Part shown: in pieces, positions 19,779 to 34,483 of the stretch
Position numbering within the stretch: position 1 is the first letter of the stretch
Layout: the number at the start of each line of letters is the position of its first letter
Origin: Salinisphaera japonica YTM-1
Lineage (GTDB): Bacteria; Pseudomonadota; Gammaproteobacteria; Nevskiales; Salinisphaeraceae
DNA: 43,523 nt
Reading direction: 5' to 3'
Assembly: GCF_003788585.1 (NCBI RefSeq)
Contig: NZ_AYKG01000025.1
Span: 1 to 43,523 of the forward strand
Translations under genes and position numbers: made by a program
Notes under the pieces: generated by a model
Told to the model about the DNA's origin: nothing
What the model saw: only the letters and a program-made list of their open reading frames with translations
Databases searched by the model: none

Positions 19779-20438
19779 TCAGCCGATCGCCTGCGACAGA
19801 TCCCGCCCGCCAATGGATAGCGAGGCTGTCTTGATCGCACCGTGTTGGCCCGAGGCCGGCCCGATGGTCTCGATGTCGCCGTGCGTATCAAAGATCACGC
19901 AGGCCCCCGGCTCGTAGAAGAATCGATAGACCGTGATATCGCCCCAGAACTCGAGCCGTCCGGCATGACTGCGGTAATGGGCGACGACGATGTCTCGGGC
20001 TTGATGAATCTGGCCTACGGCCGACAGATCGCGTAGACCACGCGGCAGATGGATCCGTCGCTGGCACTCAAGCATGGCCAGAACGAACAAAGGCTGCGCA
20101 CTACGTCGAAAATTCGTGTCCACCGCAATATAGGGCGCGAACGTACGCCGGTGCGCCGCGGTTGTTTCCATCGCCCTGAGCCCGGCCTCGTAATCGGACG
20201 CCAACATACCCAGCGCCTCACATAGCGCACGCACGAATCCACGAGCGTCGTAACGAAAATCGAAACCACCGGCCTCCAGGCCCAACAGATCATCGGCCAG
20301 TACGGCACGCAGGCGTGCCCGGCGCTCGGCAGTGACGCGTCGATACCCCATCGCCTGCAACAGCGCGTCCCCACTTCGACCGGCCGCAGCCACGCGGATA
20401 CAGCGACGCAGATTGGCAACATCATCTCGGCAGGTCAT
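19779..20438 (-). CDS. Hypothetical protein, unrecognised
   Basis: I do not recognise this 219-residue protein. It is Arg-rich, with a Cys-containing N-terminus (MTCRDDVANLRRCIRV) and probably helical in its first half; the second half looks like a mixed alpha/beta domain (IAVDTNFRRSAQPLF, ECQRRIHLP, EFWGDITVYRFFYEPGACVIFDTHG). No signal peptide or membrane helix. I chose ATG 20438 because GAGGG lies 6-10 bases upstream; a longer in-frame start at 20474 exists. It lies at the left edge of the accessory island, and one copy of the island 21-bp operator is centred about 70 bases upstream. Confidence 0.65.
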   Translation of the reverse strand: MTCRDDVANLRRCIRVAAAGRSGDALLQAMGYRRVTAERRARLRAVLADDLLGLEAGGFDFRYDARGFVRALCEALGMLASDYEAGLRAMETTAAHRRTFAPYIAVDTNFRRSAQPLFVLAMLECQRRIHLPRGLRDLSAVGQIHQARDIVVAHYRSHAGRLEFWGDITVYRFFYEPGACVIFDTHGDIETIGPASGQHGAIKTASLSIGGRDLSQAIG

Positions 20439-20495: not shown

Positions 20496-20516
20496 GTGCG
20501 ACGAATCGTGTCGTAT
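20496..20516 (+). promoter_or_regulatory. Island operator, copy 1
   Basis: This 21-bp site matches the copy at 23896 at 18 of 21 positions (TGCGAC, then AATCGTGTCG, shared). It lies between the unknown minus-strand gene (start 20438) and the decayed helicase fragment. No good -35 is visible here, so the site could be active for the minus gene or be a relic. Confidence 0.6.
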
Positions 20517-20617
20517 CCAATCGCCGGACCACCGTAAAACCTGACCTTGCGCTCAACGTGGACTTGGCCGGCGAGCACTGCTTGACTGGCCGTGGGGTAG
20601 TAAAGGGGAATAACGAT

Positions 20618-20878
20618 GTGGCACAACTCATATCTCGCCACACCCACGGCGCGCTGCGCTTTGACAGTGTGCTGCGCTTCAAGGGCGGTCAGGCGCCGGC
20701 GGTGATTCTGATCGACGTGGAGGCCGCCGTCTGGGCACACGGCACAACCACGCCGGTGCTCTACTGCGGCATGACACGGGCCAGCCTGCGACTGGACCTG
20801 TTCGTGGCGGCCGACAGCCCGATCGCCGGCCCCCTACGTCGCGCCGAGCCCGTCGACGCGCTGATAGACAGCGCGTAG
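20618..20878 (+). pseudogene. C-terminal fragment of a UvrD/Rep-like superfamily I helicase
   Basis: About 86 codons resemble only the last part of a superfamily I DNA helicase: HTHGALRFDSVLRFKGGQAPAVILIDVE corresponds to the motif V region in which an RFKG-Q/E-A-P-stretch is usual, and VLYCGMTRASLRLDL to motif VI (LYVAMTRA-R). Nothing upstream encodes Walker A, Walker B or motifs III-IV, so this is a truncated remnant. A ribosome site (AAGGGGAA) and ATG/GTG precede it, so a small peptide could still be made. It sits next to another decayed gene. Confidence 0.6.
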
Positions 20879-20927
20879 CGATCGCGCCTGCCGATGATCG
20901 GCAATTGTTTGCGGCCGGCACCAGCCA

Positions 20928-21437
20928 TCAAGGCGATTGCGTGATGAGAACCGCCGAAACCGTCGTCGGACCCGATTCATCAAGCGTGACATCGGTCGCG
21001 ATCATCTCAATATCGTCCGCATCGATGAAATCGTCCATCGCGCCGATCAATGACTGAAACTCCAAAATACCAATACCGTGGCCACGCACGACACAGCGCA
21101 GGCCACGAACACGCGGGCCGGTCGCGGCATCGCACGGCTCAAACGACCGGACACGACCGTCGACGCTGCCTCCAGCGGCATGCCGGCCGACAGCACAACG
21201 TGGGCGAACAGTACAGTCGACGCGTGGCAGAGCACGCGACGATTATCTGCCAGATCCACGCCGACGAGCCCGCCGCAGACATGTCTCGGTACACGTTTTC
21301 CCAAAGCGTATCGAGCTGCGCGACAAGCGCCACCCGCCAATCAGGCACCACACTCTCTTGGTAGGCGCCCAGGCTGCCAAAGCTGATCTATCGTCATCGC
21401 CAATCGCTGTGTTCGGGTATACAAACGCGAACGCCAT
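20928..21437 (-). pseudogene. Frameshifted hypothetical gene
   Basis: Protein-like sequence continues on the minus strand but hops frames about three times. Pieces in order: MAFAFVYPNTAIGDDD from 21437; SLGAYQESVVPDWRVALVAQ and DTLWENVYRDMSAAG; VGVDLADNRRV; then a long open stretch with LPRVDCTVRPRCAVG, GLRCVVRGHGIGILEFQSL, GAMDDFIDADDIEMIATDVT and SAVLITQSP ending at TGA 20928-20930. The last piece looks like a real acidic C-terminus. I do not recognise the family. Either a decaying gene or several assembly errors could explain the pattern. Confidence 0.4.
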
Positions 21438-21533
21438 CTCTGGATCGATCGCAGCGCGTTAAAAGCAGGCGTGATCTCGTTGCCTGGGCCGATACGCCGC
21501 CATGAAACGGCAACAGGCCTTGGCCGTATAAAA

Positions 21534-21575
21534 CCGCAAGTAAAGGCCGGCATGAAAGCCGGCCTATACTTGCGG
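21534..21575 (-). terminator. Strong hairpin terminator of the PKD lipoprotein gene
   Basis: An 18-bp stem with one mismatch (inner arms AGGCCGGC and GCCGGCCT, outer arms CCGCAAGTA and TACTTGCGG) and a 6-base loop lies about 20 bases past the stop. On the minus strand it is followed by TTTTAT. A smaller hairpin (GATAGCGG-N4-CCGCTATC) sits between it and the stop codon. Confidence 0.75.
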
Positions 21576-21593
21576 ATAGCGGAACACCGCTAT

Positions 21594-23831
21594 CTAGTTA
21601 CAGGCTGCCTGATAATTGGCCACGAAAGTATCCCCGGTTTCGGCGATCTCAAACGCATAACGCACGCCGATCTGGCGCCCCCGTGTGGGTGTGATGTCCA
21701 GACTGAAGGTGACGCTCTGCCCGGCACGAATGGTCTGGCCATCGCGCAGCCCGCCAAAGCTGGGCGTGCCCCCGGCCGCACTCGTGCTACTCGTCTTAAC
21801 CGCTTCTAGGTTGCGGATCGTGAAGTCGCCGTTGGTGGCCGTGAGGCGATATACGCCAAGCTCGCAAAAGGCAGCTGTCGTGCGAGTCGCGCTTGCACCG
21901 CTCACCTGATACGGCAGGTTGCGACTCTCAAAGCCGTCGAAAACATCATCTTCAGCCAACTGAATATCCGGCGTAACGGCGGTGACACGAACCGTATCCG
22001 TGGCGTCCTCGCCCTGACCGTCGGAGACTGTTAGCCGTACGACATAATCACCGCCGGCATCAGGCGTGAACGACGGATTGGCCGTGTCTGCATCCGTAAG
22101 CGAGCCCGCGGCCGCGGCCGGGCGGGACTGGAATGACCATTCATAGCTCAACGCATCGTTATCAGCGTCCTGGCTGGCCGTGCCGTCCAGGTTGACGCGC
22201 TCGCCGGTCACCACTTGGCGATCGTTGCCCGCATCGGCTGTCGGCGCGCTGTTGGGCGTCGCCGCGGTGATTTGAACGCGATCGGCCTGGCTGTCCAGTT
22301 CCCCGTCGTTGACCACCAGCTCAAAGACATAGACCCCGTCAACGTCCGGTGTGAATGCGGCCTGAGCCATCGCTGCGTTCACCAGCGCTGTCTCGCTGGC
22401 CGGCGGCATACTGACCACGTGCCAGTCGTAGCTCAGCATGTCGTCGTTGGCGTCCGAGCTGGTCGAGCCGTCCAGCGTGACCATCACGCCGGTTTTAACG
22501 CTGTCGTCGGCCCCTGCGTCCGCGACCGGTGCCACGTTGGCCTCAGCCGCGGTGACGGTCACGGTCTCGGCAGCGCTATCAGCCTGGCCGTCGTTCACGA
22601 CCAGGCGCAGGACATAATCGCCGGCCGCATCCGGCGTGAAGTTCGGCGATACGCTGTTGCCACCCACCAGATCGACCTGGCTATCGTCAGGCATCGACGT
22701 AAAGACCCAGTCGTAGGTCAACATGTCGCCATCGGCATCGTCGCTGTTGCTGGCATCCAGTGATACCGCATCACCCACGGTGACTTGTTCATCGTCACCG
22801 GCGGCAGCCGTTGGGCGTGCATTGGCCTGGGCCGCCGTGATCGCGACCGTGTCGGGCGCGCTGTCGGCCTCACCGTCGCTTGTGACCAGCTGCACGACAT
22901 AATCACCGGCCACATCCGGCGTGAACTCGGGCGCGACCGTGTCGGTGGCCGACAGGCTGGCATCGGCCCCGTCCGGACGCGACACGAACGACCAGGCATA
23001 CGATAGCGGGTCGCCGTCGGCATCACGGCTGTCGCTGCCGTCTAGGGCCACCGGCTCACCGGCCACTACATCCCGATCGGCGCCGGCATCGGCCACCGGC
23101 GCACTGTTGGCCGCGGCCACCGTCACGGTCACCGAATCGGCTTCGCTGTCCAGATTGGCGTCGTTGACGGTCAATGCGGCCGTGTATGTACCGGCCACGT
23201 CGGGCGTGAACATGGGCTGCACCGTATCGGCGCCGGCCAGTGTCGCCGTGCTCGCATCCGGGCGTGTCGTCAACGTCCAGGCATAGGTCAGCGTATCCGC
23301 ATCGGCATCGCTGCTGGCACTGCCGTCGAGCGTCACCGATTGGCCGGCGGTCGCGTTGATGTCGTCGCCGGCGTTGGCCACCGGCGCGCTGTTGGCCGTG
23401 GCGGCGGTGACGATGACGCTATCGGCCTCGCTTTCAGCCGCGCCGTCGTCCACGACCAGCCTGGCTTCGTAACGCCCGGCCTGGTCCGCCGTGAATGTCG
23501 GTTTGGCCGCCTCCGTATCAGATAGCGTGGCCTGGCTATCAGCGGGCGTGGTCAGCGTCCAGGCGTAATCCAGCATGTCATCGTCGGCGTCCCGGCTGGC
23601 CGAGCCGTCGAGCGTGACCGTGGCGCCGGTCTTCACGTTCTGCGCGGTGCCGGCCACGGCCACCGGCGGTGTGTTGTCGGCCGGCGCAGACGGTGCCGTC
23701 GTGTCCGGGACACTGGCCGCGTCATCGCCATCGTTATCGTCATCGCCACAGCCCGTCACCAGCAGGCCGGCCACAAGTGCGGCACAAACGCCGCCATAAA
23801 AACCGTTTCGGCTTGTTTGTCTTAACGTCAT
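21594..23831 (-). CDS. Surface lipoprotein with six PKD-like repeats
   Basis: A 745-residue lipoprotein. The signal peptide ends in the lipobox LVTGC and is followed by an acidic tether (GDDDNDGDD). Residues about 53-621 are six tandem PKD/Ig-like domains of about 95 residues, each running from N-x-x-P-x-A-x-A-G through LDGS-x-S-x-DAD-D-L-Y-W to a closing D-x-V-x-ITA. The last 124 residues form a separate domain with two cysteines (FCELGVY, and AAC at the end) that may form a disulfide, plus GLRDGQTIRAGQSVTFSLDI. Such proteins work as adhesins or carbohydrate-binding stalks. The start has a GGGGGA ribosome site. It is divergent from the WYL regulator and shares its operator region. Confidence 0.88.
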   Translation of the reverse strand: MTLRQTSRNGFYGGVCAALVAGLLVTGCGDDDNDGDDAASVPDTTAPSAPADNTPPVAVAGTAQNVKTGATVTLDGSASRDADDDMLDYAWTLTTPADSQATLSDTEAAKPTFTADQAGRYEARLVVDDGAAESEADSVIVTAATANSAPVANAGDDINATAGQSVTLDGSASSDADADTLTYAWTLTTRPDASTATLAGADTVQPMFTPDVAGTYTAALTVNDANLDSEADSVTVTVAAANSAPVADAGADRDVVAGEPVALDGSDSRDADGDPLSYAWSFVSRPDGADASLSATDTVAPEFTPDVAGDYVVQLVTSDGEADSAPDTVAITAAQANARPTAAAGDDEQVTVGDAVSLDASNSDDADGDMLTYDWVFTSMPDDSQVDLVGGNSVSPNFTPDAAGDYVLRLVVNDGQADSAAETVTVTAAEANVAPVADAGADDSVKTGVMVTLDGSTSSDANDDMLSYDWHVVSMPPASETALVNAAMAQAAFTPDVDGVYVFELVVNDGELDSQADRVQITAATPNSAPTADAGNDRQVVTGERVNLDGTASQDADNDALSYEWSFQSRPAAAAGSLTDADTANPSFTPDAGGDYVVRLTVSDGQGEDATDTVRVTAVTPDIQLAEDDVFDGFESRNLPYQVSGASATRTTAAFCELGVYRLTATNGDFTIRNLEAVKTSSTSAAGGTPSFGGLRDGQTIRAGQSVTFSLDITPTRGRQIGVRYAFEIAETGDTFVANYQAACN
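21969..23675 (-). repeat. Six tandem coding repeats of about 285 bp
   Basis: The six PKD-like domains are visible as about 95-residue units repeated end to end. Units differ at many positions, so they are old duplicates, but short stretches (for example FTPDVAG-Y, ADSVTVT, SPVADAG-type starts) recur almost unchanged. Confidence 0.85.
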
Positions 23832-23895
23832 GAGTTCCCCCTTCAAGAATGAAATGCGTGCCTGCCGAAGCTGACCATGACACTCTTGCGGTGAC

Positions 23896-23916
23896 ATGCG
23901 ACAAATCGTGTCGCAT
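23896..23916 (+). promoter_or_regulatory. Island operator, copy 2, inside the WYL-gene promoter
   Basis: A perfect inverted repeat: ATGCGACA, centre AATCG, TGTCGCAT. It fills the 17-base spacer of a good plus-strand promoter candidate, GTGACA at 23891-23896 (5 of 6 to the -35 consensus) and CATAAA at 23914-23919 (4 of 6 to the -10). A repressor bound here would block the promoter, which reads toward the WYL regulator gene. It is also 65 bases upstream of the divergent PKD lipoprotein start. Confidence 0.75.
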
Positions 23917-24096
23917 AAAAGACAATCTCCATCACGCGGCTGTCGTGGCGTTGCGCCGACTCGCGCGCCGAGGCTTGTCACATCCTCGCCCCAACGCCTT
24001 TGCACTGCGCTCGCAGTGCTTTTGGACACCGCCGGCCGACAACCCGGTACACGCGATGCGACGCTGGCTGTCGAAACCAAAAGGACCATCCAAACC

Positions 24097-25137
24097 ATGA
24101 CGGACACCGTTTTCCGGCAGTGGACCATGCTGCGACATATCCCTCGCGCGCCGCAGCGTGTCACGACCAGCGCCCTCGTCACTCGCCTGGCCGACGAGGG
24201 CTTTGGCGTCACCCCGCGCACCGTGGAGCGGGACCTCGACAAACTGGCCACGTTGTTCGGTTACACCTGCGACACCGAAGGCCGCACGAATCACTGGTAC
24301 TGGCCAAAAAATTTCGGCGCCGTCGAGATCCCGGGCCTGGAGCCCAACACCGCACTCGCCTTCCGGCTGGCCGAGCAGCACCTATCGCGTCTGTTACCGC
24401 CGGCGACGCTCGATCTGCTTACCCCTTACTTCGAGCGTGCCCGTAACGTGCTGGACGCCGACAGCCAAAAACCGCTGACCCACTGGCAGAACAAGATCCG
24501 CGTCATCGGCCACGGCCCACAGCTGGCGGCGCCGACGCTGGACACCGACATCCAGCGCACCATGTATGACGCCCTGCTCCACGAGCGCCGGGTGACCGTC
24601 GACTACGCCCCGCGAAGCGACGACGCCGGCCGTATCAAACAGTACGAATTCAGCCCGCTGGGTCTGGTCTCCCGCGATGGCATGCTCTATCTCGTGGGCC
24701 CGCTGTGGGAATACGACAACGTCGTGCAACTGGCCCTGCATCGCGTGAAAACCCTCGAGCCGGTGGACAAATCGGTCTACCGCCCGGCCGATTTCAACCT
24801 CGACGATTACATCCACGCCGAGGGCGGCTTCAATTATCCGACGGGCGAAGGCACCGTCGAGCTCGTTCTACATGCCAACGAGGCGACTGGCGCCCATCTG
24901 GCCGAGCGCCCGATCAGCGACGACCAGACCATCACCGGCCGGGCGAACAGCGTGGAGATTCGCGCCTCGGTGCTGGATACCGATGCCTTGATGTGGTGGC
25001 TACTGGGGCTGGGCGACGGGATCGAGGTACTCAAACCCGAGCGCCTGCGACGGCGAATCATCGATACCTTGGAGACCACGCTTGCCCAGTACTCGCCGAC
25101 GACCGATGCCGGGGAAAACGCCTCGAATGGATCGTGA
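24097..25137 (+). CDS. WYL-domain transcriptional regulator
   Basis: The 346-residue protein has an N-terminal winged helix-turn-helix (TTSALVTRLADEGFGVTPRTVERDLDKL, residues about 25-52), a WYL domain (about 155-225; DYAPRSDDAGRIKQYEFSPLGLV, then GMLYLVGPLW, with YLV in place of WYL) and a C-terminal WCX-type extension. Proteins of this architecture (BrxR, CapW and relatives) are repressors that sense nucleic-acid damage or infection in defence islands. ATG 24097 has AAGGA upstream with a long spacing. The 21-bp inverted repeat in its own promoter, and two more in the island, are its likely binding sites by inference. Confidence 0.9.
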   Translation: MTDTVFRQWTMLRHIPRAPQRVTTSALVTRLADEGFGVTPRTVERDLDKLATLFGYTCDTEGRTNHWYWPKNFGAVEIPGLEPNTALAFRLAEQHLSRLLPPATLDLLTPYFERARNVLDADSQKPLTHWQNKIRVIGHGPQLAAPTLDTDIQRTMYDALLHERRVTVDYAPRSDDAGRIKQYEFSPLGLVSRDGMLYLVGPLWEYDNVVQLALHRVKTLEPVDKSVYRPADFNLDDYIHAEGGFNYPTGEGTVELVLHANEATGAHLAERPISDDQTITGRANSVEIRASVLDTDALMWWLLGLGDGIEVLKPERLRRRIIDTLETTLAQYSPTTDAGENASNGS

Positions 25138-25202
25138 GGGCCGCCACGGATCGCCGACGAATCAATGATGCGCCGGTCCAGACGTGATGATACAACCCGT
25201 CG

Positions 25203-26228
25203 TTATGACATCGCATCATGCTGGGATGAACAACGCGCGATCATCTCGGGCATCGGGGCCTCGACAACGTCGCCATCGACCCATAACACCTCACGAAACG
25301 ACCGAAACTCGACGTAGACATCCGCGCCGGCGTATCGCTTCACCTCACCGGCCAGAGCCAACCCGCGACGATCCAGGGCGTCGAAATCCGGCCGCGGCCC
25401 GCCGTCGTGGGCGTGATCGAATTCCACGTCTTCCTTGAAACAGCTCCACTGTTCCAGCGCGTCAACGACAGACGCGGGAATGCCGTAGTCCTCGAACTTG
25501 ACCCCGCGACCCGTACGCAGCGCGCCGCCCGGGTAGTCGATCGGCCAGAGGCCTGCCGAGCTTGGTACCGAACAGACCTTTAACAAAAGCGCGTAGCGAT
25601 CGAGATAGCGTCGTTCCATGAAACGCCATACGGCCGGGCTGTCGGCGGGATCCAGCCGATCAAAGAACGCGCTGCCGGGCCTGGCAACGTGCCGATACAG
25701 CCACTGGCGATACAGATCGAATCGCGCGCTGCCCTGCATTGCCTGGATATACGCCGGCGTGTCATGCCGATGATCGAAGCGCTCGCGCCGCTCGGCCGGG
25801 CTCATGCGAGACGCTGATCCTGTCGCAGGAGGGCTGACACCCAGGCGGCGCTCCCGGTCGAGCCCGCGTGCACTTCGCAACCCGCCCGGCAACGCCACGA
25901 TGAGGCGCCGCCCCATGCCGCGATCGAAATCGATCATATGCTCGAGCCGCGCGCCCGGCTCCGGCGACAAATTGGTTGCCACGACCGTGCCATAGCCAAA
26001 CTTCGGATGATGAACGCTGTCTCCCGGCTCGAATTCCGGATACAGATGCGCCCCCTCTTCGGGCGAACAGAACGCCCGCGTGCCGATCACATCGCGATAC
26101 GTCCCGTCTGCAAACTCAACGTGATGACGATCCAGATCGTAGCCGGGGTCACGCGTTCGTGTGATGCCTCGCACAACGCCGTGCCCGAAGAATCGGTGAT
26201 AGATCGATTGGCCACACTCGAGAATCAC
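25203..26228 (-). CDS. Tandem Tudor/KOW-like protein coupled to a GIY-YIG nuclease
   Basis: A 341-residue protein starting with GTG that overlaps the stop of the GIY-YIG gene (GTGA). The N-terminal 110 residues hold two small beta-barrel repeats: GQSIYHRFFGHGVVRGI with HHVEFADGTYRDV, and PGDSVHHPKFGYGTVVAT with HMIDFDRGMGRRLIV. The second closely resembles the C-terminal Tudor domain of UvrD/PcrA helicases (GDRVxHPKFGxG), which contacts RNA polymerase. The remaining 200 residues are unknown, mainly helical with a conserved-looking centre (FMERRYLDRYALLLKV, PIDYPGGAL, EDYGIPASVVDALEQW) and an alpha/beta end. I infer a nucleic-acid or polymerase-linked partner of the nuclease. Confidence 0.75.
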   Translation of the reverse strand: MILECGQSIYHRFFGHGVVRGITRTRDPGYDLDRHHVEFADGTYRDVIGTRAFCSPEEGAHLYPEFEPGDSVHHPKFGYGTVVATNLSPEPGARLEHMIDFDRGMGRRLIVALPGGLRSARGLDRERRLGVSPPATGSASRMSPAERRERFDHRHDTPAYIQAMQGSARFDLYRQWLYRHVARPGSAFFDRLDPADSPAVWRFMERRYLDRYALLLKVCSVPSSAGLWPIDYPGGALRTGRGVKFEDYGIPASVVDALEQWSCFKEDVEFDHAHDGGPRPDFDALDRRGLALAGEVKRYAGADVYVEFRSFREVLWVDGDVVEAPMPEMIARCSSQHDAMS

Positions 26229-27127
26229 GCCACACCGGCGCGCGCATCCTGGAGCGACTTCAAAGTACGACCGGCCCGGTCTTTCCAGCAGATCCGCCCG
26301 TTCGCACTCCCGCCCACCAGTACGCCGGCCGCCAGCGACGGGGAACTGAACCGGAAATCCTGCGTGAAGCGCAGCGCGTGTTCATCCGTGACAAGCACGC
26401 CGCGATCGACCAGTTGTTGTCGCATATCCCGCATATGGTCATGGATCGAATCGACTTCTGCCGCCCGGGCGAGCGCCCCTTCGAGCACAACAAAGCCGTC
26501 TGCGACTTCCCGCCCTCGACCTTCACCGCCACGCTCGGCCAGATACAACATGGGCGGCTCGTCGCGGCTTGTGTCGGCGGCGGCGTGCGCTCTGGCCTGG
26601 CCAGATGCCGCCGCAAACGCATCAATGCCCAGCAATGGAAAGATCAGCCGCATTTCATCCAAGAACCATTCCGCGTCCGCGCGGTCCGGTTCCGATAGCG
26701 GCGGCGGCGTCGGCTTGTTGCCGTTCTCCAGCAGCCACTGATTCGCCTGGCGCGCGAGTTGCAGCAGTCGCGCCTCCAGATAACGCACGTGGGCCTTGTT
26801 CAGCCCCTCGTTCGTGCTGGTGAACGCCACAACCCGCGTCCAGAACTCCTTGCCCGCCACATGCTGCTTGAGCCGCTCGCCCAACGTATCGGCTTCGCCG
26901 ACATACAACATCGGCGCGCCGTCTTCTGCCGTGCCAACAAGTACATAAACGCCCGGTTGCCCCAGCTCCGGGCGCGCCAACGCCCGTTCGATTTCAGAAC
27001 GGCTGACGACGACCGCTCGGCCGGTCCAGTTGGACTTATCGATCAACCGCAGGCCGTCCGGCGTGCCGTCCGCCAGAAAGATACGAATCGACGTCGGTCT
27101 TGAATCATTCACGATGCTTGCCCCCAT
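26225..27127 (-). CDS. GIY-YIG nuclease with C-terminal DUF4357
   Basis: The 300-residue protein has a GIY-YIG-type domain near residues 60-165: the variant motifs GVYVLVG and LYVGEAD, then ERLKQH with the catalytic Arg, and YLEARLL with the metal-binding Glu. At the C-terminus is DUF4357 (GVLVGGSANGRICWKDRAGRTLKSLQD). Such proteins are widespread in accessory islands and probably cut DNA; their targets are unknown. I chose ATG 27127; a GTG 9 bases upstream is equally possible, and neither has a clear ribosome site. It is first in a two-gene operon, divergent from hsdM. Confidence 0.88.
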   Translation of the reverse strand: MGASIVNDSRPTSIRIFLADGTPDGLRLIDKSNWTGRAVVVSRSEIERALARPELGQPGVYVLVGTAEDGAPMLYVGEADTLGERLKQHVAGKEFWTRVVAFTSTNEGLNKAHVRYLEARLLQLARQANQWLLENGNKPTPPPLSEPDRADAEWFLDEMRLIFPLLGIDAFAAASGQARAHAAADTSRDEPPMLYLAERGGEGRGREVADGFVVLEGALARAAEVDSIHDHMRDMRQQLVDRGVLVTDEHALRFTQDFRFSSPSLAAGVLVGGSANGRICWKDRAGRTLKSLQDARAGVA

Positions 27128-27145
27128 CCGCCGCACGCGAGAACA

Positions 27146-27195
27146 ACGTGTATAGCAGACAGGTCATTTCCATACACGTCGCCTGCAACATGTAT
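27146..27195. promoter_or_regulatory. Inverted and direct repeats in the nuclease-hsdM divergent region
   Basis: Three 8-base half-sites: ACGTGTAT (27146), ATACACGT (27172, a perfect inverted copy) and ACATGTAT (27188). The last two form ATACACGT-N8-ACATGTAT. The first and third are each followed by AG then AGAC-like sequence, forming direct repeats. They lie between divergent promoters and could bind a dimeric controller of the restriction operon or the nuclease. Confidence 0.5.
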
Positions 27196-27317
27196 AGAAA
27201 AGACCGATAAGCGAACACGCCGCAGCTCGTTAATCACGCGCCGCGCACATCGTCAGTCACGCTACGTGCCGGTAGACTGCCGGCTTTCGTTTATCGCTTG
27301 TCCAGGCTGCTCCACGC

Positions 27318-28769
27318 ATGTTTGAAAACGCCTTCAACAACATCGACAAGGCCCTGCGCAACGACGAAGGCATGGCCACCGAGCTGGATTATGCCGAGCA
27401 GACGTCGTGGCTGCTGTTTCTCAAATACATTGCCGATCGCGAGCCCGAGCGCGAGGACGAGGCGCTGTTCGAAGGCCGTGACTACTACCCCGTGCTGGAA
27501 AAGAAGTTCCGCTGGGAAAACTGGGCCGCGCCGAAGGATCTGGCCGGCAACTTCGACCATCAGACCGGCCGCATCGGCAAAGACCTGATTGCCTTCGTCA
27601 ACGACGAGCTGTTCCCCTACCTGCAGACATTTCGTAACAGCGCGACCGGCGTGGACACGCTGGAATACAAGATCGGCGAGATCTTTTCCGAGATCATCAG
27701 CAAGTTCCGCTCGGGCTATGCCCTGCGCGATGCCATCGAGATCATCGACACCTTGACCTTCAACAGCCAGCAGGCCAAGCACGAGCTCTCGGATCTGTAC
27801 GAAACGCGTATCCGTCGCATGGGCAACGCCGGGCGCAACGGCGGCGAGTACTACACGCCCCGCCCGCTTATTCGCGCCATGATCCGTGTAGTAGACCCCA
27901 AGCTGGGCGAGACGGTCTATGACGGCGCCTGCGGATCGGCCGGCTTCTTATGCGAAGCCTTCGACTATCTCAAACGCGACGATCTCTCGACCGGCGACTG
28001 GCACACGCTTCAGCACAAGACTTTTTTCGGGCAGGAGAAGAAATCGCTGGCGTATGTCATCGGCATCATGAACATGATCCTGCACGGCATCGAAACGCCG
28101 GCTATCCGCCATGCCAACACGCTGGGCGAGAACGTGCTGGAAATCCGCGAGGCCGACCGGCACGACGTGGTGCTGGCCAACCCGCCGTTTGGCGGCGGCG
28201 AGCGCAAGGAAGTACAGCACAACTTCCCCATCAAGACCGGCGAAACGGCTTATCTGTTCCTGCAGCACTTCATCCGCAAGCTACGCGCCGGCGGGCGCGG
28301 GGCCGTGGTCATCAAGAACACCTTCCTGTCGAACACCGACAACGCCAGCGTCGCCCTGCGCCAGGAACTGCTGGAAACCTGCCACCTGCACACCGTGCTC
28401 GACTGCCCCGGCGGCACCTTCCAGGGCGCGGGTGTGAAAACCGTCGTGCTGTTCTTCGACAAGGGCGAGCCGACCCGCGATATCTGGTACTACCAGCTCG
28501 ACCCCGGGCGTTCGCTCGGCAAGACCAACCCGCTGAACGACAACGACCTGGCCGAGTTCATCGAATTACAACCGCGCAAGGCCGATAGCAGCCAGAGCTG
28601 GACCGTCGCCGTCGACGATATTGACCCGGCGACCTGGGATCTATCGGTCAAAAACCCTAATGTGCCCGAAGAAGCACCGCTACGCAGCCCGGCCGAAATC
28701 ATCGACGACATGCTGGCGCGGGATGCCGAAACCGCGCGGATTCTGGAAGAGATTCGGGGGATGTTGTGA
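27318..28769 (+). CDS. hsdM: Type I restriction-modification N6-adenine methyltransferase HsdM
   Basis: The 483-residue modification subunit methylates adenine within the asymmetric sequence chosen by HsdS. The N-terminal helical domain begins MFENAFNNIDKALRNDEG and ends near the TRRMGNAGRNGGEYYTPR-type junction; S-adenosylmethionine motif I is YDGACGSAGFL and catalytic motif IV is NPPFGG at Asn288. Its stop overlaps the hsdS GTG start by 4 bases, tying M and S production. GC-rich codon use matches the chromosome. Confidence 0.97.
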   Translation: MFENAFNNIDKALRNDEGMATELDYAEQTSWLLFLKYIADREPEREDEALFEGRDYYPVLEKKFRWENWAAPKDLAGNFDHQTGRIGKDLIAFVNDELFPYLQTFRNSATGVDTLEYKIGEIFSEIISKFRSGYALRDAIEIIDTLTFNSQQAKHELSDLYETRIRRMGNAGRNGGEYYTPRPLIRAMIRVVDPKLGETVYDGACGSAGFLCEAFDYLKRDDLSTGDWHTLQHKTFFGQEKKSLAYVIGIMNMILHGIETPAIRHANTLGENVLEIREADRHDVVLANPPFGGGERKEVQHNFPIKTGETAYLFLQHFIRKLRAGGRGAVVIKNTFLSNTDNASVALRQELLETCHLHTVLDCPGGTFQGAGVKTVVLFFDKGEPTRDIWYYQLDPGRSLGKTNPLNDNDLAEFIELQPRKADSSQSWTVAVDDIDPATWDLSVKNPNVPEEAPLRSPAEIIDDMLARDAETARILEEIRGML

Positions 28770-30010
28770 GCTCTCAAGCTGACCTTTTGTACGGATCAAG
28801 AGCGAAGTGGCCGAAGGTGCAGCTCGCCGACGTTGCCCAAGTCGTCAACGGCGGAACGCCGAAATCCAAAGTTCAGGATTATTGGGGCGGCGATGTTCAG
28901 TGGCTTACTCCAAAAGAAATGGGCGGCATGGCGGGTCGCCATATCGCTGCGACTGAACGAACCATTACCGAGACAGGATTGGCGAAATCGTCAGCTCGGC
29001 TCGTGCCAGCAAACTCTTTGATCCTGTCGACGCGCGCACCTATCGGTCACCTAGCTGTCAACGATGTTGAGATGGCCTTCAACCAAGGCTGTCGAGGTAT
29101 TGTGCCAAGCGCTGATCTCGATATCGGATTTCTCTACTACTTCCTTTTTGCTAACCGGCAACAGCTAAACGACCTCGGCACGGGAACGACATTCAAAGAA
29201 CTGTCAGCGACCAATCTAAAAACGTTCCAACTACCGTTGCCAAGGCTAGACGAGCAGAAGCGAATCGTTGCGGTGCTCGATCAGGCCTTCGCCGCGCTCG
29301 ACCGCGCTCGCGCTCATGAGCTCGAAAACCTCGGAAATTCGGCAGCTTTGCTCGAGTCGTTTGTCGAATCGCAACTCGATCAGTCGGAAGGCCGCATAGC
29401 GACCCTTCAGCAGCTTCTTGACGACGGGTCAATTAAAAGTCACCTCGACGGGAATCACGGCAGCGACTACCCTCGAAAAGACGAGTTTGTATCTTCCGGC
29501 GTGCCATATATTTCCGCGAACTGCATCATAGATGGCCAAATAGACTTTAACCGTGCCAAATATCTTTCTGAAAAGCGCGCAGCAAAACTGAGAAAAGGCG
29601 TAGCGCATGATGAGGATGTTATCTTTGCGCATAATGCTTCGGTCGGTCCGGTAGCAATACTTCGCACTTGCGAAACTAAGGTCATTCTCGGCACCTCAGT
29701 TACTTACTATCGTTGTGACCCGAACCAAATAGATCCTGAGTTTCTTGCACACGAGATGCGCGGAACGCAATTTCGAAGACAGTACGAGGCCGTGATGAAG
29801 CAAGCGACCAGAAATCAGGTGCCAATTACCGCCCAACGGAAGTTGAGTCATACGATTCCAAATATAGAGCGACAGAAATTTATAGCCGCAGCTTGTTCGA
29901 AAGTAGCAGATCGAACTAGACAGCTTTCTAAACAATACGATCAAAATCTCCGTGGGATCGATCAGTTACGGCAAACATTGTTAGAAAAAACGTTCGCAGG
30001 CGAACTTTAA
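28766..30010 (+). CDS. hsdS: Type I restriction-modification specificity subunit HsdS
   Basis: The 414-residue protein carries two target-recognition domains, each followed by a conserved helix: TRD1 (about 15-165; WPKVQLADVAQVVNGGTPK, ending FQLPLPRLDEQKRIVAVLDQAFAALDRA) and TRD2 (about 210-385; ending NIERQKFIAAACSKVADRT, then LRQTLLEKTFAGEL). It sets the DNA target for both methylation and cleavage. The second half of the gene is clearly AT-richer than hsdM and hsdR, as expected when recognition domains are acquired by recombination. Confidence 0.95.
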   Translation: MSSQADLLYGSRAKWPKVQLADVAQVVNGGTPKSKVQDYWGGDVQWLTPKEMGGMAGRHIAATERTITETGLAKSSARLVPANSLILSTRAPIGHLAVNDVEMAFNQGCRGIVPSADLDIGFLYYFLFANRQQLNDLGTGTTFKELSATNLKTFQLPLPRLDEQKRIVAVLDQAFAALDRARAHELENLGNSAALLESFVESQLDQSEGRIATLQQLLDDGSIKSHLDGNHGSDYPRKDEFVSSGVPYISANCIIDGQIDFNRAKYLSEKRAAKLRKGVAHDEDVIFAHNASVGPVAILRTCETKVILGTSVTYYRCDPNQIDPEFLAHEMRGTQFRRQYEAVMKQATRNQVPITAQRKLSHTIPNIERQKFIAAACSKVADRTRQLSKQYDQNLRGIDQLRQTLLEKTFAGEL

Positions 30011-30023
30011 TAACGCCAACACG

Positions 30024-32369
30024 ATGAAAGAAACCGAAGCCGACACCCGCGCCAATCGTATCGACTCCGTTCTTCGTGACGCGGGTTGGGATGGCACGGG
30101 CGGTTCGCAGGTTTCGCGTGAATACGTCATCGCCCAGGGCCGCATCACACAGGCCGGGCGGATCAATACGTTGACGGCCGATTACGTGCTGAGCCGGCAG
30201 GGCCGACATCTGGCGGTTATCGAGGCCAAGCGGGCCGGGCTGGGGTATACGGACGGACTGGCGCAGGCCAAGGAATACGCACGACGGCTCAAGGCGCGGT
30301 TTGCCTATGCCACCAACGGCCATCGCTGGTACGGCGTGGATATGGTGACCGGCGCGGAGGGCGATATCGGCTTGCCGTTTCCCTCGCCTACTGCGCTCTG
30401 GAACCGGTGTTTTACCCAAGACAACGACTGGCGCGAGCGCTTTGGCGCGGTGCCGTTTCATACCGCGGGCGGCAAGTGGCAGCCGCGTTATTACCAGCAC
30501 AACGCGATCACGGCCGTGCTGGAGGCGATCGCCCAAGGCCGTGACCGCATGTTGCTGACGTTGGCCACCGGCACGGGTAAGACGGGCATCGCCTTCCAAA
30601 TCGCATGGACGTTGTTTCAGGCAAGCTGGAATCTGTCGGGCCAGCCCACGCGGCGGCCGCGGATTCTGTTTCTGGCAGATCGCAATTTTCTGGCCGATCA
30701 GGCATTCAACGCGTTTTCGGCCTTCGATGCGGATGCGCTGTGTCGTATCAATCCGGCAGAGATTCGCAAGCAGGGCAAGTTGCCGAAGAACGCGAGCGTG
30801 TTCTTCACGATCTTTCAGACCTTCATGACAGAAGGGAAGACACCGGGCGAGCGTGAGTTCACGTTTGAGGGCTACCCGGCGGATTTCTTCGATTTCATCA
30901 TCATCGACGAGTGCCACCGGGGCGGCGCGCGGGATGAAAGCGCCTGGCGCGAGATCCTCAAGCACTTCGCCCCGGCCGTACAGCTGGGCCTGACGGCCAC
31001 GCCCAAGCGCGATGCCAACGCCGATACCTATGCCTACTTCGGCGAGCCGCTGTATACCTACGCGCTCAAGGACGGCATCAACGATGGCTATCTCACGCCG
31101 TTCAAGGTGCGCCAGTTGGCAAGCACGCTGGATACTTATTCGTTCTCGGGCGAGGACGAGGTGCTGGCCGGCGAGATCGATTACGACCGGCTGTATACCG
31201 AGAGCGACTTCAATACGAAGATCGAGATCGAGGACCGCGAGAGGAGCCGCGTGGAACGCTTCATGGCCGAGATCGACCAGCGCCAGAAGACACTGGTGTT
31301 CTGTGCCACCCAGGCCCATGCCGCACGGGTGCGGGATTTCATCAATCAGGTGAAAACCAGCACCGCCACAGACTATTGCGTACGGGTGACGGCCGCCGAC
31401 GGGGCCCGCGGCGAGCAGTTTCTGCGCCAGTTTCAGGACAACGAAAAGACGCTGCCGACGATTCTGACCACGTCGCAGAAGCTCTCGACCGGCGTGGACG
31501 CGCTCAACGTACGCAACATCGTGCTGATGCGCCCGATCCGCTCGATGATCGAGTTCAAGCAGATCATCGGGCGCGGTACGCGGGTCTTCGACGGCAAGTA
31601 TTTCTTTACGGTCTACGACTTCGTAAAGGCCCACGAACACTTCCGCGACCCGGAATGGGACGGCGAGCCGGAGCCGCCTGAAGTGCCAGCGCCAAAGCCC
31701 GCGCCTTATCCCGACGCGCCGGAACCTAGCGGGGATGGCGTGAGAGATGGCGACCACCTGCCGGGCGATGATGATGACAAACCGCCGGAAAAAATCATCG
31801 TGATACTGGCCGACGGCAAGGCGCGGCGTATCCAGTACCTGACGACCACCAGCTACTGGTCGCACGACGGCACGCCGATCACCGCCGAGCAGTTCATGGC
31901 GCAGTTGTTTGGCGACTTGTCCGGCCTGGTCGATTCCGAAGAGCAGCTGCGCGCGATCTGGAGCGATCCGGAGCAGCGCACGGCCTTCATCGACCGGCTG
32001 GCCGAAATGGATTACGACCACGAGCGCCTGGCCGACATGCGGCGGCTGATCGACGCGCCGGACAGCGATATCTTCGACGTACTGGCGTACGTGCGTTTCA
32101 CGCTCGCGCCGCTGGCCCGCCGCGAACGCGCTCAGCACGCGCGTGAAACCGGCCTGGCCGGCTACGAACCAGAGATGCGTGAATTTCTCGATTACATACT
32201 GCAGGCGTACGAGGCACGCGGCGTCGACGAACTGGCACCGGCACGGATCGGTAATTTCCTGCAGATCCGCTACGGCGGTATGCAGGATGCCAAGCGCCGG
32301 CTTGGTTCAGCCCAGGACATACGCGGGGCCTTCTTCGATATCCAGAGCTATCTGTTCCGTGACGCTTGA
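30024..32369 (+). CDS. hsdR: Type I restriction endonuclease subunit HsdR (EcoEI-like)
   Basis: The 781-residue motor and nuclease subunit. An N-terminal PD-(D/E)xK nuclease domain shows ADYVLSRQGRHLAVIEAKRAG (the ExK pair). Helicase motifs follow: Walker A TGTGKT near residue 183, DECH box at about 295 (DECHRGG), TATPK, and motif VI-like QIIGRGTRV. The C-terminal region matches the EcoEI-type extension. It is smaller than EcoKI HsdR, as EcoEI-like subunits usually are. The next gene starts inside its 3' end. Confidence 0.96.
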   Translation: MKETEADTRANRIDSVLRDAGWDGTGGSQVSREYVIAQGRITQAGRINTLTADYVLSRQGRHLAVIEAKRAGLGYTDGLAQAKEYARRLKARFAYATNGHRWYGVDMVTGAEGDIGLPFPSPTALWNRCFTQDNDWRERFGAVPFHTAGGKWQPRYYQHNAITAVLEAIAQGRDRMLLTLATGTGKTGIAFQIAWTLFQASWNLSGQPTRRPRILFLADRNFLADQAFNAFSAFDADALCRINPAEIRKQGKLPKNASVFFTIFQTFMTEGKTPGEREFTFEGYPADFFDFIIIDECHRGGARDESAWREILKHFAPAVQLGLTATPKRDANADTYAYFGEPLYTYALKDGINDGYLTPFKVRQLASTLDTYSFSGEDEVLAGEIDYDRLYTESDFNTKIEIEDRERSRVERFMAEIDQRQKTLVFCATQAHAARVRDFINQVKTSTATDYCVRVTAADGARGEQFLRQFQDNEKTLPTILTTSQKLSTGVDALNVRNIVLMRPIRSMIEFKQIIGRGTRVFDGKYFFTVYDFVKAHEHFRDPEWDGEPEPPEVPAPKPAPYPDAPEPSGDGVRDGDHLPGDDDDKPPEKIIVILADGKARRIQYLTTTSYWSHDGTPITAEQFMAQLFGDLSGLVDSEEQLRAIWSDPEQRTAFIDRLAEMDYDHERLADMRRLIDAPDSDIFDVLAYVRFTLAPLARRERAQHARETGLAGYEPEMREFLDYILQAYEARGVDELAPARIGNFLQIRYGGMQDAKRRLGSAQDIRGAFFDIQSYLFRDA

Positions 32370-33093
32370 GATCACCGAGGTCAGGCGGCGCTCGGAACAC
32401 GGCATGACCCGGCCATTCATTTGTCGCGGCGATGACGGCGCGGTTTATTTCGTCAAGGGACGAGATGCGGGCAAGGCCGCTTTGATCCGCGAATGGATCT
32501 GCGGCTGTCTTGGTCGAACGCTTGGCTTGCCCATCGCATCGTTCGATATCGCATGGGTGCCGGGGGAGCTCATAGCGGGGCCCGCCAGCCTTGAGCTAGA
32601 CGATCTTGGCGACGGGCCGGTATTCGCTTCGCGCGAACGCCGCGTAAGTGAGCTCACGCTGCAGTCCGCCGCGGAAATCCCGCCGGCGTTAAGACGCGAC
32701 GTGCTTGTTTTCGATTGGTGGGTCAAGAACGGCGATCGTTCTCTCACTGAAAGAGGTGGCAATCCCAATCTTTTCTGGGCCCCCGACAGTAAAGAGTTGG
32801 TGATCATTGATCACAACGTGGCGCTGGATGACACACTCATGCGCGATGAGTTTCTAGCTGACCACGTATTCCGCGATGAAGCAGAAACAGTGTTCAATGA
32901 CTTGGCCATGCGCGCCGAGTACACTGCACGTCTAGAATCAGCGATAATGCAATTGGACGCAGCGACTGCGGCCATACCCGCGCAATGGCGCTATCATGAC
33001 GCTGATGAACTCGACTCCGTCGCATTCGATTGGGTCGCGATGAAAACGCTTTTGAGCGCTTTTCGAACCGAGGGTTTCTGGGCGATCCGATGA
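32359..33093 (+). CDS. HipA-like kinase-fold protein
   Basis: A 244-residue protein of the short HipA-like family. Starting at GTG 32359 it overlaps hsdR by 11 bases. Kinase-like features: YFVKGRD (the ATP-binding lysine strand), NGDRS at residues 124-128 (catalytic loop Asp), then GGNPNLFW and LVIIDHNVALD, matching the DFG-like metal-binding Asp region. It is much shorter than HipA (about 440 residues) and has no HipB beside it; the neighbour is a DUF3037 protein, a partner seen with this subfamily. Likely a serine/threonine kinase of unknown target. Confidence 0.8.
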   Translation: MTLEITEVRRRSEHGMTRPFICRGDDGAVYFVKGRDAGKAALIREWICGCLGRTLGLPIASFDIAWVPGELIAGPASLELDDLGDGPVFASRERRVSELTLQSAAEIPPALRRDVLVFDWWVKNGDRSLTERGGNPNLFWAPDSKELVIIDHNVALDDTLMRDEFLADHVFRDEAETVFNDLAMRAEYTARLESAIMQLDAATAAIPAQWRYHDADELDSVAFDWVAMKTLLSAFRTEGFWAIR

Positions 33094-33923
33094 GCCGCAC
33101 TCTTTGCCAATACGCGATCGTGCGTTTCGCGCCGTTTCTTGAGACGGGCGAGTTTGCGAACGTGGGTATTATCCTGCTGGCGGCGGATCAATCTTATTTC
33201 GGGTTCGAGATCGAGACCCAGCGCTACAAGCGCGTAACGAATTTCTTTGACGATATGGACAGTCGTTTATATCGCCAGACCGTCAGAGAACTCGGACTCG
33301 AGCTTGAACGAATTCAGACGCTGATCGCACGCCAGAAAAACACGTCTGCTTCTGATCGGGTGGACGCCCAAGCACTGTTCGATGAGCTCATCCGAGCGCG
33401 CGAAAGTATCGTGCGCTTTAGCCAACCTGGCGTGGTGCTGGCCGAAGACCCCGCACAACAACTGAACACGTTGCATCGCTATTACGTACGCCGAAGTTTT
33501 GTGACCCCCGAACATCGCGAAACCGCACTGGCGCGCGGCATCGGCCAGTGGCTGAGAGACGTCAATATCAGCGAACGCTTCACGCCGGCTCGTCTGGGCA
33601 ACGAAGAATTCGAAACGCCGAAGCTTCCATTCGTTGAGCAGCGGAACGGCAAAGCGGTCAAGGCTGTAAAACCGCTCAGCCTGGATCAAACAACGCCGAT
33701 CGCTATTCTCGAACACGCCGACAGATGGAAGTTTCGTATAGCTGGCTTGCGTAAACGTGGGCTGTTTGATGGTCGTTTTCTATTCGCTATCGACGGTCCT
33801 TCCGGTAACGACAAACGCGCCAAAGCGTTCGAGGAGGCGCGCGGCTTGCTGACGGATATCGAAGCGAACGTGGTCGACTATAAAGACCGAGAAGGCGTTA
33901 TCGACTTTGCTTTAGAGGCATGA
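33090..33923 (+). CDS. DUF3037 protein coupled to HipA-like kinase
   Basis: A 277-residue protein starting ATG 33090, with ATGA overlap of the kinase stop. The N-terminal part (CQYAIVRFAPFLETGEFANVGIILLA) is the signature of DUF3037. The middle is charged and helical, and the C-terminal part (KFRIAGLRKRGLFDGRFLFAIDG) looks like a second small domain. No catalytic motif is seen. Tight coupling suggests it binds or is modified by the HipA-like protein. It ends the five-gene hsdM-S-R-kinase-DUF3037 operon. Confidence 0.8.
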   Translation: MSRTLCQYAIVRFAPFLETGEFANVGIILLAADQSYFGFEIETQRYKRVTNFFDDMDSRLYRQTVRELGLELERIQTLIARQKNTSASDRVDAQALFDELIRARESIVRFSQPGVVLAEDPAQQLNTLHRYYVRRSFVTPEHRETALARGIGQWLRDVNISERFTPARLGNEEFETPKLPFVEQRNGKAVKAVKPLSLDQTTPIAILEHADRWKFRIAGLRKRGLFDGRFLFAIDGPSGNDKRAKAFEEARGLLTDIEANVVDYKDREGVIDFALEA

Positions 33924-33943
33924 TGGCCCAGGGGCTCGGGCCA
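33924..33943 (+). terminator. Short hairpin at the end of the hsd operon
   Basis: TGGCCC-N8-GGGCCA starts directly after the DUF3037 stop. The stem is only 6 bp and lacks a T-run, so the termination role is tentative. Confidence 0.3.
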
Positions 33944-33967
33944 CCGACTGCACCGGTAGGTTGACCA

Positions 33968-34277
33968 TCAGTTCAACCGCTCAACCCCACCGGCAGACTT
34001 TGGCACGGATATAGAACGAAGCCAGCCTTGATCGGCCAATTTTTCGAAATGCTCGATCAGACGGCCATTGAAACAAACCGGTGCCCTGTGCATTACGCTT
34101 TCAGTTATCAGCAGCGTCCGCGGGGTTCGACTGGTGTGGCATGGTCACTGACCCCGTTACGTCCAAATCCGATAGGGCCCGCGTGCTCCGGTTGGCCAGC
34201 CGGGCCTGGGGCAAACCGGCGTCCTGCCTGGCTTGCCGAACAAGACAGCCGAAGCTGCCCGCGCCTGCGACAAGCAT
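33968..34277 (-). pseudogene. Remnant of an Xre/HipB-like regulator
   Basis: From ATG 34277 on the minus strand, one frame encodes SFGCLVRQARQDAGLPQARLA followed by STRALSDLD, close to the start of HipB-type Xre helix-turn-helix proteins (GxLVRxARxxxGLTQAxLA, then FLSDLExGKP). The pattern then fails. From about 34145 another frame stays open (RTLLITESVMHRAPVCFNG, RLIEHFEKLADQGWLRSI, SVPKSAGGVERLN) to TGA 33968. The sequence thus looks like a frameshifted or rearranged small gene, perhaps a HipB relative lost from an old toxin-antitoxin locus. It fills most of the 560-base gap between the hsd operon and the AAA+ gene. Confidence 0.45.
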
Positions 34278-34280
34278 CAA

Positions 34281-34298
34281 TATTCCCGATCGGGAATA
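34281..34298. promoter_or_regulatory. Perfect 18-bp palindrome before the Xre remnant
   Basis: TATTCCCGATCGGGAATA lies 4 bases upstream of the remnant regulator start. Xre/HipB proteins bind such palindromes to control themselves, so this is probably the orphaned operator. Confidence 0.6.
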
Positions 34299-34393
34299 AG
34301 TAGCCAATAGTTCTGTTCGACGATAATTCGAGGCGGCACTTCTTCGCATTAGTTCAGCGTTGACTATCCCGCGCGCACACGCCAGGCCGCCCC

Positions 34394-34442
34394 TTGGCCA
34401 GTAGCGCGGGCCATTGCATAACAACGACACGATGTGTCGCAT
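34394..34442 (+). promoter_or_regulatory. Candidate promoter and island operator, copy 3, of the AAA+ gene
   Basis: TTGGCC (34394-34399) and CATAAC (34417-34422) form a weak sigma70-type promoter with a 17-base spacer. Directly after it, 34422-34442 read on the minus strand is the island operator (ATGCGACA, centre CATCG, TGTCGTTG), 17 of 21 identical to the site at 23896. Operator placement over the transcription start suits a repressor. Confidence 0.65.
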
Positions 34443-34483
34443 TGGCGGTGTCTAGTACGTCTCCCTGCCCTGTGGAGACCGCC

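Follow-up and report, generated by a model that had tools for sequence, protein, structure and literature searches.

DriD of Caulobacter crescentus is a WYL-domain activator triggered by single-stranded DNA (ssDNA), and its box has the consensus ATACGAC-N7-GTCGTAT (PMC12340889). As the promoter passages of that report have it, DriD sites lie at one distance from the -10 element, the site is centred on the -35 position, which matches at 1-2 of 6 bases, and the box at driD drives the divergent operon, not driD itself. PafBC, likewise triggered by ssDNA, and SiwR of mycobacteria are also described as WYL activators of DNA-damage genes (PMC11804915, PMC10693628). BrxR and CapW stand beside defence systems and are repressors (PMC9122601, PMC9122589, PMC9122588): according to the relevant passages of these papers CapW boxes overlap the -10, and the site of Acinetobacter BrxR overlaps the -35. 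Within the open-licence full-text literature covered, the parts dealing with defence-island WYL proteins characterise them as repressors, and a review notes an unstudied WYL protein next to ddmDE in Vibrio cholerae. On which of these sides does a new defence-island WYL protein fall? This article concerns such a regulator and its repeated operator in Salinisphaera japonica YTM-1 (contig NZ_AYKG01000025.1, positions 1 to 43,523; this whole stretch of 43,523 nucleotides is called the window), where the box precedes the WYL gene and, 10 kb away, a gene for an AAA+ protein.

The reading favoured here, with a probability of about 0.7, is that the WYL protein would be a DriD-like activator of a regulon made of several defence and repair operons, probably repressing its own gene. 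It is favoured because profile and fold lie nearest to DriD and PafBC, and because the -10 elements found 8-9 bp from the box are almost never accompanied by a -35. An original prediction, made from the window's letters alone, had found the three operators and the regulator, and had seen in the latter a BrxR/CapW-like repressor. The control of a defence island containing type I restriction by a local regulator with palindromes is also reported for RptR, which, unlike the window protein, is an unrelated repressor of 79 residues acting, in the passages that describe it, through three 6-bp palindromes (PMC12255303).

The box and its conservation upstream of WYL genes

The three copies of a 21-bp inverted repeat are as originally described: O1 is perfect, O2 agrees with it at 18 of 21 positions, and O3, in the minus orientation, agrees at 17 of 21 by direct reading, with its core at 34423-34441 on the minus strand (Table 1). 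They can fairly be called intergenic; O2 shares bases only with the first stretch of a decayed open reading frame (ORF), whose UvrD_C_2 similarity starts at residue 59. The sites are real and specific to the window. Few further genomic matches had been expected, and the core pattern of the three sites finds in the 3,262,569-base genome 3 exact matches, all in the window, none deviating at a single position, 3 deviating at two and 29 at three (11 at up to three for the reversed pattern), a count that is partly circular since the pattern was derived from the sites themselves. The plain symmetric box TGCGACA-N5-TGTCGCA, usually taken at up to two mismatches, is backed independently by relatives of the window. 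At that threshold the genome has 26 such places, and five of these lie in the window, which makes up 1.3% of the genome and for which 0.35 would be expected by length (P 2e-5); the reversed-pattern control gives 17 places genome-wide. A match missing from the original list is a likely second, degenerate operator for the WYL gene (Table 1), two boxes being present at the 59%-identical homologue as well; another, at 24268 within that gene, is probably due to chance.

The WYL regulator belongs to a subfamily that is widespread among proteobacteria. A set of 66 homologues was assembled (the window's own protein excluded, weak or broken matches L040-L063 and plasmid matches beyond five omitted), and the 200 bp upstream of each start were scanned. 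The box was found at 9 of the 66 at up to one mismatch, at 14 at up to two and at 19 at up to three, compared with maxima of 1, 1 and 3 for 100 control boxes with shuffled arms. When spacer lengths from 0 to 12 were compared, only 5 bp gave boxes at two mismatches. The site is conserved, rather than part of recently shared DNA, because identities to the window protein fall to ~30%. Counting was tied to loci with a WYL gene, because genome-wide box counts alone prove little: at up to one mismatch the symmetric box has matches in 54 of 100 genomes, own included, and the reversed pattern gives similar counts in many of them. Individual homologues show how the box varies. One that is 59% identical has two boxes; in genome G166 the box has drifted with its inverted repeat kept; in G444 the WYL gene follows an AAA+ gene in an apparent operon, which has boxes though the WYL gene itself has none. 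Taken together, these counts make it very probable, and well supported, that the box is the operator of this WYL subfamily, and the assignment of the repeat to the WYL regulator in the original prediction stands.

Apart from these intact genes, a broken WYL gene in G016 (L076:7537-8175) carries two boxes spaced by 56 bp, just as at the intact G006 gene. In G234 a second perfect box (L140 near 18979) precedes a short frame whose first residues look by eye like a WYL start, possibly a truncated paralogue. A scan of viral contigs gave no WYL relative.

The AAA+ gene and other operons preceded by the box

That the AAA+ gene is a target was also part of the original prediction, and comparison of genomes bears it out. 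Among 368 class-wide genomes besides the window's own, 22 have AAA+ homologues, 31 have WYL homologues and 14 have both (P 8e-12, ignoring phylogeny and assuming that both surveys drew on the same 369 genomes). Box counts upstream of the AAA+ gene follow the same division: at up to two mismatches it precedes the gene at 6 of 17 loci in genomes with a WYL homologue and at 0 of 15 elsewhere (Fisher p 0.019). This count covers 32 loci, six fragments or start-less loci having been left out; at one non-WYL locus only 35 bases could be scanned, and G045 was placed with the non-WYL genomes despite a weak WYL match (6.9e-8). Of the six loci with a box, four (G019, G444, G289 and G121) had already been seen among the WYL loci. 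At seven AAA+ loci without a WYL homologue, box matches at 2-3 mismatches fell inside ORFs. The AAA+ and WYL genes adjoin in several genomes; in the window they are separated by 10 kb and a restriction operon, with the AAA+ box retained. On these comparisons the AAA+ gene is probably a recurrent target of the WYL regulator, and well supported as such. As for the protein itself, PADLOC IetA matches it at 1.5e-32 over one of its AAA modules only, and it scores below the curated IetA cut-off (NCBIfam IteA_antiphage, 99 bits vs 510). IetS, the partner of IetA in the IetAS system, is a subtilase; the gene behind the AAA+ gene has no family match.

The box is also found before other operons. Around 20 WYL genes (551 kb, window excluded) there are 21 further boxes at up to two mismatches, in 11 loci, compared with an average of 2.2, and never more than 8, for 60 shuffled arms; at up to one mismatch the figures are 10 vs a mean of 0.17 and a maximum of 2. 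These 20 loci, which also served for the first scan of -10 elements, were partly picked for having boxes, so that the fairer figure is the 14 of 66 obtained upstream of the homologues. In G369 (L144:3317-12694) a recC-recB-recD-like operon has a box 50 bp in front of it, at 15.7 kb from a WYL gene and with GATACT 9 bp on. In G019 the box precedes the AAA+ gene, followed by genes for a PD-(D/E)XK protein and a UvrD-type helicase; in G444 it stands between a ZacABC operon and the AAA+-WYL pair; and on a Marinobacter plasmid it lies near genes for a metallophosphoesterase and a cytosine methylase.

Activation or repression

The position of the box relative to promoter elements is strikingly regular. 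When a sigma-70 -10 element was scored by its distance past the box in both directions, the score peaked at 9 bp (mean -1.72 vs -4.68 elsewhere, standard deviation 0.43), a peak with a z of 6.9 that none of 300 shuffles matched. The 9-bp offset had first been noticed by eye in the 20 loci, and a held-out test was therefore made on other loci: 43 in all, 17 of which provide 42 site-directions, with upstream regions scanned in part before, never for a -10. Here scores above 3 were found 8 times at offset 8 and 7 times at offset 9, vs 0 to 4 times at other offsets. With offsets 8 and 9 joined, a score above 2 was reached at 25 of 72 site-directions in the first set (other offset pairs: mean 5.4, maximum 10) and at 19 of 42 in the held-out set (mean 3.8, maximum 8). 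A -35 score above zero was seen at only 3 of 44; assuming a 17-bp spacer, the -35 position coincides with the centre of the box. At O3, TCTAGT lies 9 bp on toward the AAA+ gene. O1 is built differently: toward the WYL gene it has no -10 at 8-9 bp, but it fills the spacer of GTGACA-N17-CATAAA, exactly as originally described. In raw counts, the -10 at WYL-gene sites is directed away from the gene at 7 of 19 and toward it at 3 of 19.

The regulator itself also lies nearest to activators by profile and fold. Pfam WYL and WCX score above cut-off in the 346-residue protein, and its model has a winged-helix fold. A profile of 35 homologues matches DriD at 1.4e-19 and PafBC at 1.6e-18, with CapW at 0.0016 and BrxR at 0.02 and 0.23 (proteins with an in-frame stop were omitted from the alignments, A1 and A2). 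Searched by Foldseek with an AlphaFold model (predicted local distance difference test score 89, predicted template modelling (TM) score 0.65), DriD is again best at 8.5e-16, followed by PafBC (8.4e-13), ssDNA-bound CapW (8.3e-10) and BrxR (2.1e-8). Like DriD as its published description has it, the window protein combines winged helix-turn-helix, WYL and WCX parts in a chain of similar length, and its box shares the CGAC-N7-GTCG geometry, the fixed -10 distance and a poor -35 inside the box. The window box differs from the DriD consensus at 2 positions; the driD promoter, as printed, fits the window box with 2 mismatches and has a -10-like ACAATC 8 bp on; for the bapE promoter no such fit was obtained. 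Unlike DriD, the window protein shares only ~20% identity with it and its family has one ssDNA-contact arginine replaced; the DriD targets named in the relevant part of the report (didA, bapE, recJ, dnaG and CCNA_03891/01149) include no defence island (PMC12340889). The site of SiwR, a 19-bp imperfect palindrome upstream of the -10, is comparable to the window box by its description, but PafBC differs in being a heterodimer that uses a -26 motif (both as given in part of PMC11804915 and PMC10693628).

Several observations weigh against the activator reading. No box (at up to two mismatches, within 200 bp) was found upstream of 52 of the 66 WYL homologues, one of 60% identity included. In the held-out loci offset 9 alone reaches only z 2.8, with offset 8 equally strong, and a gene start does not follow the -10 significantly more often (13 of 25 sites with a -10 vs 13 of 47 without, p 0.07; held-out, 11 of 19 vs 7 of 23, p 0.12). 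In the window itself, the -10 signals of O1 toward the PKD gene and of O2 toward 20438 are weak. The Foldseek superposition on DriD gives TM 0.45 over the whole chain, and VIA-align Z scores barely separate DriD (13.0), CapW (12.1), BrxR (11.8) and PafBC (11.6). Finally, the first of the pair of ssDNA-binding arginines known from PafBC, its equivalent being taken from the DriD alignment, is alanine in 30 of 35 family members, the second being invariant (35 of 35). Because one arginine of the two is replaced, ssDNA as the ligand is only a guess, and because the pair is incomplete, the protein is filed as DriD-like, not as DriD.

It is against this background that repression has to be judged. 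The original prediction supposed a BrxR/CapW-like repressor of its own gene and of the AAA+ module, released by a ligand. For the gene's own control the idea is supported in part, O1 filling a good and complete promoter, and self-repression is retained in the favoured reading; for the AAA+ operon it is not supported. BrxR and CapW do resemble the window system, as WYL regulators beside defence systems with palindromic boxes, and in the passages on BrxR both of its sites have the same 5-bp spacer, E. fergusonii BrxR also having two boxes in its island. They differ in being repressors of ~290 residues, with weaker matches in profile and Foldseek, and the Acinetobacter BrxR box as published differs in sequence. 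Nor does a repressor require a fixed 8-9 bp to the -10 and a missing -35, and CapW boxes lie over the -10. The geometry by itself is nevertheless no proof of activation versus repression, because Acinetobacter BrxR, a repressor, has its site over the -35, a point that counts against activation here. On balance, repression of the AAA+ module appears unlikely, though repression throughout is the chief rival of the favoured reading.

Less probable still is that the box, though real, is read mainly by some other regulator of the cell, with the WYL gene as one target among others. The many WYL homologues without a close box would fit, but boxes cluster in WYL loci; where no WYL homologue was detected in a genome, its AAA+ genes lack them at up to two mismatches (0 of 15); 5 of the 26 places in the genome fall within this small region; and the box is similar to the DriD site, DriD being a WYL protein too. 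As for recombination sites, mobile-element remnants or chance, the adjoining of O2 to a decayed helicase fragment and the opposite orientation of O3 would fit; however, homology does not extend beyond the box, and many genomes have it in front of genes, accompanied by a promoter element at a constant spacing. Chance is excluded by the perfect O1 repeat and the shuffled-arm controls, and this whole group of explanations is hardly credible.

The predicted regulon and its significance

In the favoured activator reading, a WYL dimer would bind ATGCGACA-N5-TGTCGCAT, as conservation indirectly suggests. At the promoters of its targets, that of the AAA+ gene for instance, the box would cover the -35 position, with a lone -10 lying 8-9 bp downstream; to judge from architecture and homology, the WYL protein would there most likely bring in RNA polymerase in the manner of DriD. 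At its own gene, where the box fills a complete promoter, binding would switch transcription off. From what is known of the family, the most likely trigger would be a nucleic acid that signals an attack by phage or damage to DNA and is sensed by the WYL domain. Within the window, the AAA+ gene, the PKD gene, gene 19779-20438 and perhaps the membrane protein gene would then belong to the regulon; the restriction operon between the WYL and AAA+ genes would stand outside, with no box at up to three mismatches in front of it.

Table 1. Coordinates of the operators, promoter elements and genes in the window
Feature	Position	Strand	Remarks
O1, perfect operator	23896..23916		between WYL gene (+) and PKD lipoprotein gene (-)
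O2, operator	20496..20516		58 bp before minus-strand gene 19779-20438; weak -10 CTCAAT at 9 bp that side
O3, operator	34422..34442		42 bp before AAA+ gene; box also before AAA+ homologues
Candidate degenerate second operator, WYL gene	24057..24075		21 bp before WYL start, 2 mismatches
GTGACA-N17-CATAAA promoter toward WYL gene	23891..23919	+	O1 fills spacer (direct reading)
-10-like TCTAGT	34451..34456	+	9 bp beyond O3, top-scoring among 45 offsets; -35 absent
WYL regulator, winged helix-turn-helix, WYL and WCX, 346 residues	24097..25137	+	
AAA+ protein, two AAA modules, distant IetA similarity	34484..36637	+	probable conserved target
Membrane protein gene behind AAA+ gene	36891..39080	+	possible co-target
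Gene, possible O2 target	19779..20438	-	
PKD-repeat lipoprotein-like gene, divergent from WYL gene	21594..23831	-	possible target of O1, with a weak -10 (AAGAGT) 9 bp away

The candidate targets differ in how far relatives inform on them. For the 730-residue membrane protein, 99 other genomes and the plasmid collection yielded no relative. Gene 19779-20438 is unproven as the target of O2, because its sole relative among 13 congeners has no box at up to three mismatches. On the other side of O2, the segment 20483-20878 is a decayed helicase C-terminus (UvrD_C_2). This fragment to the right of 20496 was rejected as a present target of O2, as no -10 lies at 8-9 bp on that side. By analogy, a lost helicase target is possible, because boxes of relatives precede RecBCD-like and UvrD-type helicase genes.

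The island contains other genes with likeness to defence candidates. Two genes lie behind the WYL gene on the minus strand (25203-27136); one of them, at 26225-27136, contains DUF4357 and is similar to the defence candidate PDC-S14 (7e-106). At 32143-33923, genes for a HipA_2 kinase-like protein and a DUF3037 protein match the candidate defence pair PDC-M66A/B and overlap the end of the HsdR-like gene.

On a wider scale, the odds are about even that this widespread DriD-like WYL family forms an SOS-like immunity switch, with one box and one regulator that is triggered by a nucleic acid indicating infection and damps its own gene. In this reading its regulon would consist of the operons for defence and for the processing of DNA ends gathered in each island: AAA+, RecBCD-like and AddAB-like nuclease-helicases, Zac and restriction. 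The combination of TGCGACA-N5-TGTCGCA with a -10 at 8-9 bp allows members of defence regulons to be proposed from sequence only, including genes without a known defence match. If the activator reading is true, defence islands would be subject to positive control of the DNA-damage type besides the known repression, and the joint switching-on of separate immune systems would become directly testable.

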